57,985 nucleotides of DNA, taken from NCBI GenBank assembly GCA_014859105.1, contig JACUUX010000011.1, forward strand, positions 1-57,985. Reading direction: 5' to 3'. The DNA is from Nitrospirota bacterium. Its GTDB lineage: Bacteria > Nitrospirota > Thermodesulfovibrionia > Thermodesulfovibrionales > SM23-35. Made by a program: the position numbers and the translations under genes. Numbering within the stretch: the stretch's first letter is position 1; each line of letters begins with the position of its first letter. Below are positions 9,303 to 57,870 of this stretch, piece by piece. The notes under the pieces are model-generated. The model was not told the origin of the DNA. It made no database searches and worked only from the letters and a program-made list of their open reading frames with translations.

Positions 9303-9549
9303 CTATGACAAACCCCCTTCCTATATCCTCCCTGTAAGCAGAGGGATTCTATAAACACACAAAAGCTTTTTTAAAGGATGTTGCTTTAAATGACTGGATT
9401 ATGACTTTAAAGCGACTTCTGGAGGTGAGAAATATTTAATTTTGTGAATAATTTTCAATTTGACGTCTATTATATGATTAATTTTAATCTTAATCCTCCG
9501 TAAAAACATTAATGTCATAATTACCAGCTCTGGAAAAAATAAACCCGCC

Positions 9550-9700
9550 CTGCCGTGTAAGGAGAAATTAGATCCGCCTAAAAAATAGGTGGGTACCCTG
9601 AAAGAGTCTTCAGGCTTCCCCGCTCTTTTGATGCGGGGCCTGCACACCAACCCTCTACCCGGGCTCCCAAAAGATCTAATTTGCCGGATCAATATTCTCA
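9550..9700 (-). ncRNA. ssrS: 6S RNA
   Basis: On the minus strand, GGTTGGTGTGCAGGC is followed by a GC-rich hairpin (CCCCGC / GCGGGG) and AAGCCTGAAGAC. This closely matches the segment around the central region of Escherichia coli 6S RNA (GGUUGGUGAGCAUGC ... GAAGCCUUAAAAC). The ends close with a perfect 10-bp stem, AAATTAGATC (9673-9682 on the plus numbering) with GATCTAATTT (9565-9574). The result is the long irregular hairpin that mimics an open promoter and binds the sigma-70 holoenzyme. Outer boundaries are approximate. A 123-codon reading frame across it is a shadow. Nothing else is recognised between 9303 and 9550. Confidence 0.85.
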
Positions 9701-9936
9701 CCTTATCACCAACAGGGCAGGCATATTTATTTAATTTATAGAGCAACCTCCTATTTATCTTTTCATTCATAATTTAGGATAAAATAAAAATATATTTTAT
9801 AGCAAGCGAATTTTATACGGGATTAAACAAATCCTGCATGAAATGAGCATTGGGGAACTTCACAGTTCCAAAATAGAAGAAATAATTTTTTCAATAGGTT
9901 GGATTAATAATTATAAAGTATATGTTAAAGGATTTG

Positions 9937-13310: not shown

Positions 13311-15191
13311 CTAAATACTTATTCTTACTCCTCCGAAAACAGAAAATCCCGGTGTTCCATAACTTCCGATTTCTTCGTAATCCTCGTCAAGCAGATTATC
13401 AATCCTCATAAATAGAGTCATCCATTTTGATGTTCTGTAATTGCCGGCTACGTTAACGATCGAGTATGAAGATAGATTTCTTTTTACCAGACTATCCAAT
13501 CTTTTACTGACAAAAGTATAATTAACAATAGCCGATATATCCTTCTTTGAGAGCTCTGCGGACAGATTGAACTTATCTTTTGGTCTGAAAGGCAAGTTCT
13601 GTCCGGTAGCCTCATCTTTAGTATCGAGACGCATGTAACCTGCTTTGATGGTTACCTCATCTGTCATTTTTAAAATTGTATTTGCCTCGATACCTTTAAC
13701 CTTTGCCCTTGAGATGTTTGCCGCACTAAAGGTAAATGGGTCAGTCTGAATCAGGTTCTTATATCTCTGATCAAAATATGTTAAATATACAGACATATTT
13801 TTGAAAACATCTTTTTCCATGCTGATCTCCCATGATGTACACTCCTCGGGCCTCAGACGCGGGTTTCCATAGAAAGGGAAAAACAATTCGTTAAACTTGG
13901 GTGCTCTGAAACCGGTGGCATAGCTGCTTTTAATCCTTAAAGCGTGCCGCCTGATGTTATATGCTGCACCGATCCTGTAGGTCGTCTTGTTTCCGAAAGT
14001 CTCGTGGTCATCATATCTTAAGCCTGCGTTCAAGAAGACCTGTTCCTGAAGAAACTTCAAAATATTATTTACATAGACTGCTTTATTAATCAGAGACCTG
14101 TCGAAATTGCCTTCATTTTCTCCCTTTTCATTTCTATATTCGGCACCCACTGTGAGCGTGTAAGAGTTGATCAGGTAAAAATTATGTTGCCAGTCGATAG
14201 TTTCCATTTGTGAAATAATGTCGTAGTTATTAAAGATGGTGTCCGGATCCCTTCCTTTCAAAGAGTCTCTGACTATCGAAGCGGTCAATATTTGCTCCCA
14301 AGTATCAGATATAAATAGTTTTCCTTTACCTGAAAGGCTATAGTGATGTAAATGCTGGACATAGTTTATGGCATCTACTGCCTGTTTTTTAAAAAAATCG
14401 AAATCGTCAAATTCGGAACGTCCATAATAATGCCTTCCTGAGAATTCAAGTTCAAATTTCTCGGCTGGTTTAATACCAAATTTTCCTGAAAAATTGGCAT
14501 TTCTATATCCATCCCTTTCGGTGCCGCCTTTTGCAGAGGATATCCCGTCCGTGGAGAAATAGGATGCGGTAGCCCTGTAGTCATATTCTCTGACTCCGCC
14601 GGAAAAAGTCATAGAGGATTTATACGTCCCGAATGAACCGGATTCTAAAGACACATTAGTTTTTGGCTTGCCCGTTCCTTTTTTCGTTATGATATTTATC
14701 ACTCCGGCCATTGCCTCTGAGCCGTACACTGTACTTTGCGGACCTTTTACTAACTCAATTCTTTCTATGTCGTCAACTGTTATACCTGAAAAATCGAATG
14801 AACCGGTATTGGTGCTGTTAACCTTTATTCCGTCTATCAGTATCAGCGTTTGTGAGGAGCCTGCCCCGCGTAAGAGAAGAGTGGCATTGCCTCCGGGACC
14901 TCCATTCTGGACAAGATTCAATTCAGGAATCTTTCTCAGAACATCTGTTATAAAATTAACATTCATCTTCTTGATATAATCATTCTTGATAACGATAACA
15001 TTACTTGTTGTTTCTTCGATTGCTTCTTCCATCTTTGCTGCTGTGACAACAATTTCTTCTAAAGATATGGCCTTTTCTTCTGCAAAAGAGAAAGTGAAAA
15101 GTAAAAAGTGAAAGGTGAAAAGTAATAAAATGCAAATAATTAGTCTTGAAAATTGATGATTGATGACTGATGACTGATGACTTGTTTTCAT
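13311..15191 (-). CDS. btuB: TonB-dependent outer membrane receptor, BtuB-like (vitamin B12)
   Basis: The 626-residue receptor has a signal peptide (cleavage probably after A37), a TonB box (about EEIVVTAAK, 45-53), a plug domain (VLRKIPELNLV, LLLRGAG, LIDGIKVN, IERIELVKGP, YGSEAMAGVINIITKKG) and a beta-barrel to the C-terminus. Cobalamin as the ligand is inferred from the cobalamin riboswitch directly upstream on the same strand. The 5' coding region is unusual: codons for residues about 3-12 and 22-34 are made of heptanucleotide repeats, so part of the signal peptide is repeat-derived. No B12 ABC transporter genes are adjacent. Confidence 0.9.
   Translation of the reverse strand: MKTSHQSSVINHQFSRLIICILLLFTFHFLLFTFSFAEEKAISLEEIVVTAAKMEEAIEETTSNVIVIKNDYIKKMNVNFITDVLRKIPELNLVQNGGPGGNATLLLRGAGSSQTLILIDGIKVNSTNTGSFDFSGITVDDIERIELVKGPQSTVYGSEAMAGVINIITKKGTGKPKTNVSLESGSFGTYKSSMTFSGGVREYDYRATASYFSTDGISSAKGGTERDGYRNANFSGKFGIKPAEKFELEFSGRHYYGRSEFDDFDFFKKQAVDAINYVQHLHHYSLSGKGKLFISDTWEQILTASIVRDSLKGRDPDTIFNNYDIISQMETIDWQHNFYLINSYTLTVGAEYRNEKGENEGNFDRSLINKAVYVNNILKFLQEQVFLNAGLRYDDHETFGNKTTYRIGAAYNIRRHALRIKSSYATGFRAPKFNELFFPFYGNPRLRPEECTSWEISMEKDVFKNMSVYLTYFDQRYKNLIQTDPFTFSAANISRAKVKGIEANTILKMTDEVTIKAGYMRLDTKDEATGQNLPFRPKDKFNLSAELSKKDISAIVNYTFVSKRLDSLVKRNLSSYSIVNVAGNYRTSKWMTLFMRIDNLLDEDYEEIGSYGTPGFSVFGGVRISI
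15094..15128. repeat. Heptanucleotide array encoding part of the BtuB signal peptide
   Basis: Five 7-base units on the plus strand: GTGAAAA, GTAAAAA, GTGAAAG, GTGAAAA, GTAATAA. Read on the minus strand they encode the Phe/Leu/Thr-rich hydrophobic core of the btuB signal peptide. Confidence 0.85.
15152..15183. repeat. Heptanucleotide array at the btuB start codon
   Basis: ATTGATG, ATTGATG, ACTGATG, ACTGATG, ACTT. It encodes residues about 3-12 of the receptor on the minus strand. Confidence 0.85.
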
Positions 15192-15216: not shown

Positions 15217-15452
15217 GCTGAGTTCTGTATGGTCCGGACAGGTCTTCCGGCTCAGGGCTACCTACTTGCCTGCCTTCCCATCATGGTATTACCCGTGACA
15301 GTGGCTGTTGGCAGTGTCAGTGTTTGTTGGTTTTACTATTAACTGATAACTGTTTACTGATCACTGCTGTTTTGGGCTTTCGTTCCCTTCACGGCTGCGG
15401 GGCAGCGGGAGAATCACTTTACCAGTTCACTCCTCTTCCCTGACATCCAGCC
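15217..15452 (-). promoter_or_regulatory. Cobalamin (AdoCbl) riboswitch
   Basis: On the minus strand the conserved elements appear in order: CAGGGAA, a B12-box-like CGCTGCCCCGCAGCCGTGAA, CGAAAGCCC, then CCACTGTC, GATGGGAAGGC, and AGCCGGAAGACCTG. Short outer pairing (GCTG..TGT with ACA..CAGC) closes the aptamer. It ends about 25 bases before the btuB ATG, where a GAGGGAGGA ribosome binding site lies, so B12 could block translation of the receptor. The aptamer is long (about 236 nt) because a heptanucleotide array sits in a variable peripheral stem. Confidence 0.92.
15335..15369. repeat. Heptanucleotide array inside the riboswitch
   Basis: ACTATTA, ACTGATA, ACTGTTT, ACTGATC, ACTGCTG: five 7-base units starting with ACT, located in the peripheral, non-conserved part of the aptamer. 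Confidence 0.85.
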
Positions 15453-15547
15453 AAATAAATTTCTAAATACTACTGAAATTCATCACCTCCTCTTAATTAA
15501 ATTCGTTATTTTATATCACACATCTTAGTAATTTTCAATAAGCTTAT

Positions 15548-19527: not shown

Positions 19528-19555
19528 AGTTATAAGTTATACGTTATATTCTTAT
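19528..19555. repeat. Heptanucleotide array upstream of pgsA
   Basis: AGTTATA, AGTTATA, CGTTATA, TTCTTAT. It borders a GTCATTC palindromic repeat. Confidence 0.75.
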
Positions 19556-23727: not shown

Positions 23728-23781
23728 CGTTACCGTTATACGTTACCAATACGGGCATCGTAACCGTAACCTTAACCGTAT
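23728..23781. repeat. 6-7-base periodic repeat tract between fmt and def
   Basis: Units such as CGTTACC, GTTATAC, GTTACCA on one arm and CGTAAC, CGTAAC, CTTAAC on the other form an imperfect inverted tract. Confidence 0.65.
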
Positions 23782-24487: not shown

Positions 24488-26230
24488 ATTAAGGTTATAG
24501 ATTTTAATTCCAGGGAGGACAGAGAAACATACAGGCATAGTGTATCCCACATAATGGCTCATGCTGTCAAAGAGCTATTCCCCGATGCCAGGCTGGCAAT
24601 AGGTCCCGCAACAGACGAAGGTTTTTATTATGATTTTGATATAGACAGGACATTCACACCGGAAGACCTCTATTTAATAGAAAAAAAGATGTCAGAAATA
24701 ATAAACAGGAATAATCCGTTTGTGTGTAAAGTTATACCGAGAGAAGAAGCGGTCAAGCTATTTCGAGAGAAAGGTGAAACTTATAAAGTGGAGCTCCTCC
24801 ATGAAATAACGGATGAAAATGTGACTCTTTATCAGGAAGGAGATTTCGTAGATTTATGCAGGGGGCCTCATATTGAATCCGCCGGCCAGGTCAAAGCTTT
24901 CAAATTATTGAGTGTTGCAGGTGCATATTGGAGAGGAAACGAAAAAAATAAAATGCTGCAGAGAATTTATGGAACAGCCTTTACAGATGAGAAAGATTTA
25001 AAAAAATATCTTGATTTCCTTGAGGAGGTTAAGAAGAGGGATCACAGGAGGCTTGGTAAGGAACTTGAACTATTCAGCATAGGCGAAGAGATAGGGGCCG
25101 GACTGATTATATGGCATCCAAACGGAGCATTGATAAGAAGGACAATAGAAGAATTCTGGCTTAATGAACACTACAGGGCAGGTTACAAGATTCTCTACAC
25201 TCCGCATATAGCAAAACTTGATTTGTGGAAGAAGAGTGGTCATCTCGATTTCTACAGGGAGAACATGTATTCTCCTATGGAGATTGAAGGTGTGGATTAT
25301 GAGATTAAGCCTATGAACTGTCCTTTTCATATACATGTATACAAAAGCTCTTTAAGGAGCTACAAGGAATTGCCCATAAAATATGCTGAACTCGGAACAG
25401 TTTACAGGTATGAACGGTCTGGTGTTTTACATGGCCTTCTGCGTGTGAGAGGCTTTACGCAGGATGATGCACACATATTCTGCAGGGAAGACCAGATAGA
25501 AGATGAGGTTCTCAATGTCCTTGATTTCACTCTATATGTATTGAAAACTTTCGGGTTTAAACAATATGATACTTATCTTTCAACAAGACCTGAACATTAT
25601 GTTGGAACACCTGAAAGCTGGGAGAGGGCGACCAATGCACTCAAAAATGCTCTTGAGCTAAAGGGGCTTTCTTATGATATTGACCCGGGAGAGGGGGTTT
25701 TCTACGGCCCTAAAATAGACATAAAGGTAAAAGATGTACTCAACAGACCATGGCAATGCAGCACAATTCAGGTTGATTTCAATAACCCTGAAAGGTTTGA
25801 TATAACATACAGAGGAAGCGAAGACAAAGAGCAAAGGCCTATAATGATACACAGGGCACTGATGGGGTCATTAGAAAGGTTTTTCGGGATACTGATAGAG
25901 CATTACGCGGGAGCTTTCCCTGTATGGCTTGCGCCTTTACAGGTCAAAGTTCTTACAATAGCAAAAAGGCATAATGATTATGCAAGAAATTTAACTGAGA
26001 AATTGAAGTCAGAAGAAATAAGGGCAGAGTCAGATCTTGAGAATGAGAAAATCGGTTATAAAATCCGAAATGCTACTGTAATGAAAGTGCCATATTTGGT
26101 TATAATAGGTGACAGGGAAGTATCGGAAGGGAATATAACAGTTAGAAAACGCACAGGTGAGAATATAGGCCCATTTACAATAGACAAATTTATCCGGATA
26201 ATAAAAAAGGAAATAGACAGCAAACAGTAG
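24488..26230 (+). CDS. thrS: Threonyl-tRNA synthetase, TGS-less, with probable ATT start
   Basis: Charges tRNA-Thr. No ATG, GTG or TTG occurs in frame between the stop at 24455 and the ATG at 24554, yet the codons from 24488 encode IDFNSREDRETYRHSVSH. This includes H17 and H21, which with C124 and H128 (CRGPH) form the editing-site histidine/cysteine set. A GAGGAGG box lies 7 bases before the ATT at 24488, so I place the start there (580 residues). The N-terminal TGS domain of E. coli ThrRS is absent. Class II motifs and the zinc-binding cysteine (MNCPFHIH) follow, then a C-terminal anticodon domain. Confidence 0.93.
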   Translation: MKVIDFNSREDRETYRHSVSHIMAHAVKELFPDARLAIGPATDEGFYYDFDIDRTFTPEDLYLIEKKMSEIINRNNPFVCKVIPREEAVKLFREKGETYKVELLHEITDENVTLYQEGDFVDLCRGPHIESAGQVKAFKLLSVAGAYWRGNEKNKMLQRIYGTAFTDEKDLKKYLDFLEEVKKRDHRRLGKELELFSIGEEIGAGLIIWHPNGALIRRTIEEFWLNEHYRAGYKILYTPHIAKLDLWKKSGHLDFYRENMYSPMEIEGVDYEIKPMNCPFHIHVYKSSLRSYKELPIKYAELGTVYRYERSGVLHGLLRVRGFTQDDAHIFCREDQIEDEVLNVLDFTLYVLKTFGFKQYDTYLSTRPEHYVGTPESWERATNALKNALELKGLSYDIDPGEGVFYGPKIDIKVKDVLNRPWQCSTIQVDFNNPERFDITYRGSEDKEQRPIMIHRALMGSLERFFGILIEHYAGAFPVWLAPLQVKVLTIAKRHNDYARNLTEKLKSEEIRAESDLENEKIGYKIRNATVMKVPYLVIIGDREVSEGNITVRKRTGENIGPFTIDKFIRIIKKEIDSKQ

Positions 26231-26282
26231 ATAGTAAACGGATATTTTTTTCTGTGTGCTGTTTGCTATATGCTGTCTATTT
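26211..26282. repeat. Inverted heptanucleotide arrays spanning the thrS stop codon
   Basis: Left arm units AATAGAC, AGCAAAC, AGTAGAT, AGTAAAC; right arm units GTGTGCT, GTTTGCT, ATATGCT, GTCTATT. The outermost 12 bases pair perfectly (AAATAGACAGCA / TGCTGTCTATTT). The structure covers the last thrS codons and ends 8 bases before the infC ribosome binding site. Confidence 0.8.
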
Positions 26283-45769: not shown

Positions 45770-45774
45770 ATCAA

Positions 45775-45886
45775 GGATTCAGGATTCAATATACAGGATG
45801 AAGAAAGAGAAATATCGTGCATCATGCATCTTATATCTTGTAGCGTATTTACTGTTTACTGTTTACTCCTTTATACGTGAACTCCA
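45775..45886. repeat. Sixteen-unit degenerate heptanucleotide array
   Basis: Consecutive 7-base units from GGATTCA, GGATTCA, ATATACA, GGATGAA through GTGCATC, ATGCATC, TTATATC to GTATTTA, CTGTTTA, CTGTTTA, CTCCTTT. A 33-codon frame (45798-45899) with a hydrophobic centre can be read across it but is made of these units. It occupies the place of a small transporter subunit (CbiN or NikL). Confidence 0.85.
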
Positions 45887-45923
45887 ATCAAAAAAATAAT
45901 TGACAACTATAGGAGCCTGATTC

Positions 45924-49117: not shown

Positions 49118-49283
49118 TTTTGGTTTTATTGTCTGAACCTGTTCAGCCGGTCAGACAGCCTTCAATAATCTACACCCCCCACAGGGACGAGTGTATTTCC
49201 ATAACTGGGACTGTAATATAATGAACAGCGCCGAAGCAGAGCTTCGAGGAATTCTTTTTAGAGTTAATTTAAATTGACAGTTT

Positions 49284-49332
49284 AAAAGATAAAGGGTAAA
49301 AGGAAGATTACATGCCTCCTGCCTTCTACCCA
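49284..49332. repeat. Heptanucleotide-like tract where rimM would be expected
   Basis: Units AAAAGAT, AAAGGGT, AAAAGGA, AGATTAC, ATGCCTC, CTGCCTT, CTACCCA with weak inverted symmetry (GGGTAAAAGGAAG / CTTCTACCC). The 293-bp gap 49118-49410 holds no RimM-like frame. Confidence 0.6.
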
Positions 49333-57075: not shown

Positions 57076-57870
57076 ATGAGAATGTTTATTTTAGGAATTG
57101 TGGCAGTATTTTTTATCCTGGGGTGCGGGGGACAGATTAAGGAGTTACAGATGCGTGATACAAATGAACAGACGAAGAAAGTTGTATTCCCGAAGGGGAC
57201 CGTGTTGGGTGGAGCTTCCAAAGATCAGGCGAGTGTGCTGGCCCAGATCTTCGTTGAATCACATAACAATGCCATGAAGGAGACCGATGAGATAAAGAAA
57301 TCAACTCAAACGCTGGAAGGTTCTACAAAGAGAATAGAAGTATCAACTCAGAAAATAGAAGGGTCGACCCAGAAGATACTGGAATCAAGCCAGATGAATT
57401 TTGAAACAGCACAGAAGACACTTATGACCATCGAGCATCTTTCGAGGAGTCAGGGAACAGGCGAAATCACACTCTTTTATCCGGTAGCGTCCTTTCAGAT
57501 TAAAAAAGGAAGCCTTGAGTATCAAAGACTGGTGAATTTCATCGATTTCCTGTCTCAGAGAAGCAATGGAAGGAAAATATTGTTCATCTCTATCGGAAGT
57601 GCCTCAGCCTTTGGAGACATGAATTTCAATAGAAGACTGGCCGAGAAACGTTCTGATGCACCAATGGAAATTATCGACAAATATCTTGTAAATATTCCCC
57701 ACGAATTTTATAAGGTTTACGGGGTAGGGGATGTGTACAGCCCCAAAAATGTGAGCATGAAAGAACATCATAAATATCAGAGCACACGGATAATAGCATT
57801 TTATGAAACAGACCAGATTCCTATTTTGCCAGAACCTGTTGAAGATAAAGAGAGGTTTTTCCAGAAATAG
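57076..57870 (+). CDS. Lipoprotein with coiled-coil repeats and OmpA-like C-terminal domain
   Basis: The 264-residue lipoprotein has a signal ending in the lipobox ILGC, a linker, and a heptad-like segment built from repeats of STQ-x-IEGSTQKI type (about residues 80-125), probably a coiled coil. The C-terminal domain has the OmpA/MotB-like core (LFYPVASFQIKKGSLEYQRL, ISIGSASAFGDMNFNRRLAEKRSDA), which may contact peptidoglycan. GGAGG lies 9 bases before the ATG at 57076; the frame's earlier start lies before this site. No partner genes are visible before the window ends. Confidence 0.82.
   Translation: MRMFILGIVAVFFILGCGGQIKELQMRDTNEQTKKVVFPKGTVLGGASKDQASVLAQIFVESHNNAMKETDEIKKSTQTLEGSTKRIEVSTQKIEGSTQKILESSQMNFETAQKTLMTIEHLSRSQGTGEITLFYPVASFQIKKGSLEYQRLVNFIDFLSQRSNGRKILFISIGSASAFGDMNFNRRLAEKRSDAPMEIIDKYLVNIPHEFYKVYGVGDVYSPKNVSMKEHHKYQSTRIIAFYETDQIPILPEPVEDKERFFQK

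Follow-up and report, generated by a model that had tools for sequence, protein, structure and literature searches.

The window, by which we mean the whole stretch of 57,985 nucleotides analysed here, is contig C45 of the 3.16 Mb draft genome of a Nitrospirota bacterium in the order Thermodesulfovibrionales. Its focal site, a spacer of 154 nt between cbiM and cbiQ, holds two tandem arrays of degenerate heptanucleotides—the left one (45774–45808, + strand) begins directly after the cbiM stop codon and consists of AGGATTC-type units, AG-type on the + strand, and the right one (45814–45867, − strand; lag-7 segment score 21) is CT-type on the + strand (CTTGTAT/ACTGTTT type) and reads AGTAAAC, AAGATAT, and ATGATGC on the − strand. 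Both were recovered as lag-7 segments, and identity across the focal array is 63% at lag 7 versus 20–31% at lags 5, 6, 8, and 9. An earlier note, made from the sequence alone, had described a single 16-unit array in strict register; the array is real, but it is made up of these two converging sub-arrays. A 33-codon ORF (45798–45899, + strand) translates as MKKEKYRASCILYLVAYLLFTVYSFIRELQSKK, its hydrophobic stretch being encoded by the right sub-array. The neighbouring CbiQ is closest to that of Thermodesulfovibrionales bacterium Yes46-09 (77% identity), followed by many Nitrospirota. Many relatives carry a gene for a secreted protein at the focal position, absent here, which by its position and motif is probably NikL-like. 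Where relatives have an array, it starts after the cbiM stop codon and encodes the beginning of this protein (for example, VKRFKIQDSRFKIQNSKFKITPVIIVLILYLASSSASA-HKVSIYAYAEDG in L058), and in relatives without one the signal peptide is short, as in MKRFYFLLVVIFCLLPTFSYA (L187). The focal array and its 33-codon ORF may be a remnant of this gene, the ORF possibly of its signal peptide. The predicted fold of the array is no better than that of shuffled sequences (z = −0.7).

The array with the highest score in the window encodes protein, a point that the earlier note did not make. It lies in a TonB-dependent receptor gene (13311–15191, − strand; Pfam PF00593 and PF07715), where an array with the gene-strand unit AGTCATC (15146–15182, − strand) encodes the start of the predicted signal peptide and a second, with the gene-strand unit TTTTCAC (15091–15128, − strand), encodes its hydrophobic core. 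The two arrays converge, and the pair (15091–15182) specifies a predicted signal peptide that reads GGGAGGAAAAAAATG, then MKTSHQSSVINHQFSRLIICILLLFTFHFLLFTFSFA, then EEKA. In at least eight further ORFs of this genome that look secreted or lipoprotein-like, CT-type units likewise supply the hydrophobic core, and we infer from these translations that the array-encoded N-termini act as signal peptides. Upstream of the receptor gene lies a cobalamin riboswitch (15220–15465, − strand; RF00174) with a 62-nt insert that contains an array of AGTNANN units (15332–15366, − strand; lag-7 score 14), at which the predicted fold shows an extra stem (z = −2.1).

A short array of three AGTTATA/CGTTATA units (19528–19548, + strand; score 12) stands upstream of a CDP-alcohol phosphatidyltransferase gene. 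Arrays had been claimed at 15094, 15152, 15335, and 19528, and lag-7 segments of score 33, 14, and 12 lie there. At two further claimed loci, 26212/26254 and 49284, the layout is AG-type on the left and CT-type on the right, but the segments score only 7–10 and are individually non-significant: one pair lies between the end of thrS and the start of infC (26204–26274; AGTAGAT/AGTAAAC on the left and CTGTTTG/CTGTCTA on the right; scores 8 and 10), and the other lies in the spacer beside trmD (49283–49330; scores 8 and 7). The mixed 6/7-base tract placed at 23728 is instead a GTAACC tract of period 6 with no heptamer array (23759–23780). The window also encodes a 6S RNA (9538–9726, − strand; RF00013, 98 bits), and near its end (57316–57418) lies a tandem repeat of period 21, equal to three heptamers, yet without a period-7 signal.

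Period, unit sequence, and distribution

The earlier note had staked its proposal on a genome-wide excess at lag 7 over neighbouring lags, and such an excess was found. Across 1,162,433 bases of this genome (lag statistics cover 1.16 of the 3.16 Mb, and pattern searches cover whole genomes), 39 lag-7 segments scored at least 18, compared with 0–3 at lags 3–6, 8, 10, 11, and 13. Among about 40 members of the same order, 609 kb around five genes yielded 101 lag-7 segments at a cut-off of at least 14, versus 0–9 at lags 4–6 and 8–13. The best lag-7 segments in the window score 33 (15091–15182), 23 (45774–45867), 14 (15332–15366), and 12 (19528–19548); at other lags from 2 to 13 the top segments score 10–14, and in 60 dinucleotide-preserving shuffles of the window the best lag-7 score averaged 9.3, with a maximum of 14. 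Shuffles and neighbouring lags together rule out a chance origin of the arrays, and confirm the seven-base array phenomenon in this genome as real.

The period is constant without a constant sequence, as had been proposed: the 64 arrays of this genome yield 43 distinct consensus units, each unit being uniform inside one array and different from locus to locus, with slightly more sharing among nearby arrays than distant ones (p = 0.01). The commonest units are AAACAGT, AAAATTT, ACAGGAT, AAAGAGC, and AATGACT. We considered a universal AGT anchor and rejected it—AGT/ACT is enriched 1.5–1.9 fold in arrays, with TGA and GAG enriched to a similar degree—and because the anchor is not obligatory, pattern counts built on it catch only part of the arrays.

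We searched the whole genomes of 41 order members for AGTN4AGTN4AGTN4AGT, for which chance expectation, given 12 fixed bases, should be well under one match per genome. The 2,211 matches were spread very unevenly, from 0 to 354 per genome: 354 in G006, 340 in G032, 324 in G029, 217 in G011, 184 in G004, and 30 in the genome of the window, with zero matches in the whole genomes of G020, G022, G034, and G039. G032 and G020 belong to a single family. Most sampled family mates of the present genome have arrays, and loci of Desulfobacterota and Atribacterota have similar ones; the earlier view that arrays are odd for such a genome is not supported. The period-8 version of the pattern gave 71 matches over all genomes other than G026, whereas G026 alone had 127, against a single match for the heptamer version; period 7 is thus not universal, since this relative uses 8. 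The octamers of G026 (AGTGAGTT, AGTATGCA, and AGTGCGAC) form converging pairs in a genome where heptamer arrays are almost absent, and they resemble a dispersed element because near-identical sequence recurs at many loci with near-constant pair spacing. Its genus mate G038 has neither octamer nor heptamer arrays. One mixture of units, AGTCGTT with AGTGAAT, was seen in G029 and at L071:896–912 and L084:3824–3840 (Atribacterota and another bacterium), that is, in distant phyla, and could reflect horizontal spread of arrays.

Searches for carriage by phages or plasmids were limited tests: one exact 20-mer had no match in viral contigs, and one array had no match in plasmids. The presence of reverse transcriptase showed no association with array count among relatives. 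Ku is missing without exception from the 11 array-rich genomes and present only in array-poor order members (nine genomes; Mann–Whitney p = 0.012, Fisher p = 0.08, values that ignore phylogeny), a restriction that may reflect phylogeny or real antagonism.

Polarity, protein-coding arrays, and change between sister species

Arrays had been said to occur as inverted pairs, and this proved correct in a stricter form that the earlier note had missed. Among close pairs at loci of this genome and its relatives, 24 of the 27 that could be classified converge, with top-strand AG-type units in the left array and CT-type units in the right; three run in the same direction, none diverge, and ten were left unclassified. 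An independent listing from whole-genome pattern matches gave 19 converging pairs and no diverging ones. Diverging pairs exist in Atribacterota (L073 and L077), so the polarity rule is perhaps not universal. Left and right units are more similar within a locus (4.25 of 7 positions) than between loci (3.52 of 7), a comparison in which base composition is only partly controlled. We rejected the idea that the arms form perfect hairpins, because complementarity is poor in many of them and the predicted fold of the focal array is like that of shuffles.

The claim that arrays occupy coding and regulatory DNA alike is also supported, by in-frame enzyme loops as well as by the signal peptides and riboswitch described above. 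With ORFs called mechanically, many arrays turned out to be read in frame within conserved proteins, and Pfam confirmed the hosts HypF, ribonucleotide reductase (NrdJ), LeuRS, HisF, D-Ala ligase (Ddl), MetRS, ferrochelatase, QueC, LpxK, and a GspD-like secretin. The arrays are degenerate and the host genes remain open, which bears on a comparison with phase-variable contingency loci, whose near-perfect repeats shift the reading frame as they change length. In HisF, the array stretch spans residues 136–162, where a solved HisF has about two residues. The HypF loop measures 33–45 nt in most relatives without an array, compared with 81–87 nt in G011 and in the genome studied here; in G004 and others it holds a CCCCCC...GGGGGG palindrome. 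The loops of MetRS and Ddl are longer with an array, and the LeuRS stretch is of nearly equal length with or without one. Another repeat, a palindrome (CCCCCCTTTGCTAAAGGGGGG and variants) translated in frame as PPSPPFAKGGQGG or PSPPLLKGGKGG, shares protein loops with the heptamer arrays and takes their place in sister species; it was found at L138 (HypF), L021 (LeuRS), and L177 (QueC) of this genome and at L210, L215, L273, L287, and L333 of relatives.

Comparisons between sister species, at about 87–94% identity, revealed several modes of change. G001 and G019 have kept several arrays in common, on which ground we rejected rapid turnover everywhere; in G004/G016 and G001/G015 every unit has changed with length and register kept; and in G008/G017 an array has been swapped for another element. 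Among sister species at 91–94% identity we found no clean empty sites. At the start of an LptE-like lipoprotein gene in the G008/G017 pair (L340:6545–6605 vs L344), in units that are otherwise different, eight substitutions, mostly A/G, are spaced by 14, 7, 7, 7, 6, 7, and 7 bases, a single case. At four sites, judged by eye, the outermost array unit equals native codons of homologues without arrays—AGTCATC in HypF, AAGATTC (the KRF codons) in the NikL-like gene, CGTGAAG in LeuRS, and TCTGAA in MetRS—which, at the level of sequence comparison, suggests local, self-seeded duplication.

Origin of the arrays

The reading we prefer, though we rate it a little short of an even chance, is that the arrays are local tandem duplications in seven-base steps, self-seeded and copied inward from both sides. 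Duplication would start from a heptamer already present where extra sequence can be tolerated (a spacer, a protein loop, signal-peptide codons, or a peripheral RNA stem): at a replication gap or break, a 3′ end would realign out of register and be extended by copying, which would repeat the heptamer. As there would be no separate template, the unit would vary by site and the step would stay constant; as copying would proceed inward from either side, two converging arrays would result, AG-type on the left and CT-type on the right. Hairpin-templated copying may account for partial complementarity of the arms. Arrays would then survive where length and coding permit, and some would be co-opted as signal peptides, loops, or RNA stems. 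A copying process had been proposed as the likely cause in the earlier interpretation, a part of it that our results support. In its favour are the lag-7 excess here and in relatives, units that are alike within an array but not between loci, the convergent polarity, the match of outermost units to native codons, the slight sharing of units among nearby arrays, and the change of all units between sister species at constant length and register. The data show the period, the polarity, the uneven distribution, the in-frame positions, and the replacement of arrays between sister species, whereas self-seeding, copying from 3′ ends, and the machinery are proposed from them. The conservation of several arrays between sister species, which indicates that the process is not always active, counts against local copying, as do the recurrence of the AGTGAAT/AGTCGTT mixture in G029 and Atribacterota, which points to the dispersal of ready-made arrays, the dispersed look of the G026 octamers, and the failure of plain slippage to account for either the preference for 7 or the polarity. 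We tried fusion of two extended ends by non-homologous end joining and discarded it; with Ku missing from every array-rich genome, such joining is not required.

The alternative that fares next best, and that we think possible though not probable, is a mobile palindromic element (MITE- or RPE-like), pasted in as finished units with heptamer-periodic arms, tolerated in loops and spacers, and drifting afterwards. It would explain why the HypF, MetRS, and Ddl loops carry either arrays or the CCCCCC...GGGGGG element depending on the relative, why whole arrays are swapped between sister species, why the octamer pairs of G026 share one sequence at near-constant spacing, and why the G029 unit mixture stands at many loci. 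However, units differ from locus to locus in most genomes, one conserved sequence at many loci being true only of the G026 octamers and not of the heptamers in the present genome. Units that equal local native codons and a LeuRS stretch whose length is nearly the same with or without an array are also unlike insertion, and a common end sequence was looked for and not found.

Ordinary polymerase slippage, in which the stretch of DNA gripped by the polymerase would favour 7 and selection would produce the polarity and gene locations, appears unlikely to us. It is true that heptamers outnumber other long simple repeats in many bacteria (PMC4679880, PMC4692102), and indels in 7-nt steps have been reported between Cyanothece strains. 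Yet polymerases are conserved, and members of one order nevertheless carry anything from 0 to 354 arrays, with a period of 8 in G026; degenerate units should block slippage, and slippage alone does not predict convergent pairs; in its plain form it explains neither the preference for 7 nor the polarity. Equally improbable, in our estimation, is the bolder form of inward copying, in which a dedicated DNA-synthesis activity extends 3′-end heptamers in fixed steps (7, or 8 in at least one relative), inward from both sides, and so makes new peptide segments, signal peptides, and RNA stems without a separate template. Least probable is that the converging arms are functional RNA or DNA sites, acting on gene expression as hairpins or when bound by a regulator: the greater arm similarity within loci, the near-complementary LeuRS arms of G004, the riboswitch stem, and the annotation of similar Geobacter repeats as regulator sites favour it, against the shuffle-like fold of the focal array, the many coding arrays in unrelated genes, the divergence of units between sister species at several sites, and the many order-mates with few or zero arrays.

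For local inward copying and its alternatives, the order offers array counts from 0 to 354 and a switch of period from 7 to 8, which makes the question of why seven testable; the polarity rule narrows down the possible mechanisms, and homologous sites can be compared between genomes that have an array there and genomes that do not. A heptamer array runs through all three reading frames, and a unit free of stops therefore yields an open heptad peptide in any frame, a possible route to new coding sequence, and several secreted proteins seem to use heptad peptides as signal sequences. For annotators, such enzyme inserts derive from genomic repeats and are not domains.

Comparison with known heptamer systems

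In-frame tolerance within conserved proteins recalls the Rickettsia palindromic elements, short repeats that are likewise accepted in frame. Those elements differ in having one conserved sequence in common, and they are not known to have a 7-bp internal period. The short tandemly repeated repetitive (STRR) sequences of heterocystous cyanobacteria are degenerate heptamer repeats, to which the earlier note had likened the arrays. The likeness is one of analogy, and the period-7 excess places our arrays within the broad kind of heptanucleotide arrays (STRR and long simple repeats), but 43 distinct units among 64 arrays do not fit membership of STRR in the strict sense, with few fixed units per genome. 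The P6b stem of the Nostoc trnL intron, a peripheral stem with degenerate heptanucleotides (PMC3488679, PMC4476775), resembles our cobalamin riboswitch in that inverted degenerate heptamer arms lengthen a peripheral RNA stem. These STRR and intron heptamers fall into few unit classes, one of which is replaced by another, belong to a different phylum, and are not described in those two papers in enzymes or signal peptides.

The overrepresentation of seven-base repeats in bacteria has been on record since 2007 and still lacks an explanation; Mrazek and colleagues offered the polymerase footprint as a guess (according to PMC4679880 and PMC4692102). The GGGAATC and GGGGA(T/C)T arrays of Xanthomonas and Nostoc (Rehm et al. 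2015, PMC4692102) are, like ours, spread over the genome in convergent pairs and variable in sequence and length among related species; Xanthomonas has 70–75 convergent GGGAATC pairs per genome, few of them between divergent genes. Those genomes each use one G-rich, quadruplex-capable unit that is about 90% intergenic, whereas ours uses dozens, mostly without G-tracts (the commonest lack the run of at least three G per unit), and many stand in frame in conserved enzymes. The TAACTGA repeats of marine Beggiatoaceae, Cyanobacteria, and Bacteroidetes (MacGregor 2015, PMC4679880) share with our arrays direct heptamer repetition, patchy occurrence among relatives, and a partial location within ORFs, and they show 7-nt indels. 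They have one fixed unit, in forward orientation just 5′ of start codons, inverted pairs are almost absent in the Beggiatoaceae genome, and those in ORFs affect mostly hypothetical proteins or protein ends; our units are locus-specific, arranged in converging pairs, and often intragenic. Geobacter metallireducens has tandem hepta- and octanucleotide elements, intragenic and intergenic and often in opposite-strand pairs (PMC2700814), and so, like the Thermodesulfovibrionales, combines both periods in one bacterial group. Each class there has a conserved consensus and dozens of copies, which makes these elements dispersed families like the G026 octamers and unlike our heptamers with their locus-specific units. 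Measured against the literature we searched, the new features here are units that differ by locus yet obey one polarity rule, arrays used in frame in essential enzymes and in signal peptides, and a period that switches within one order.
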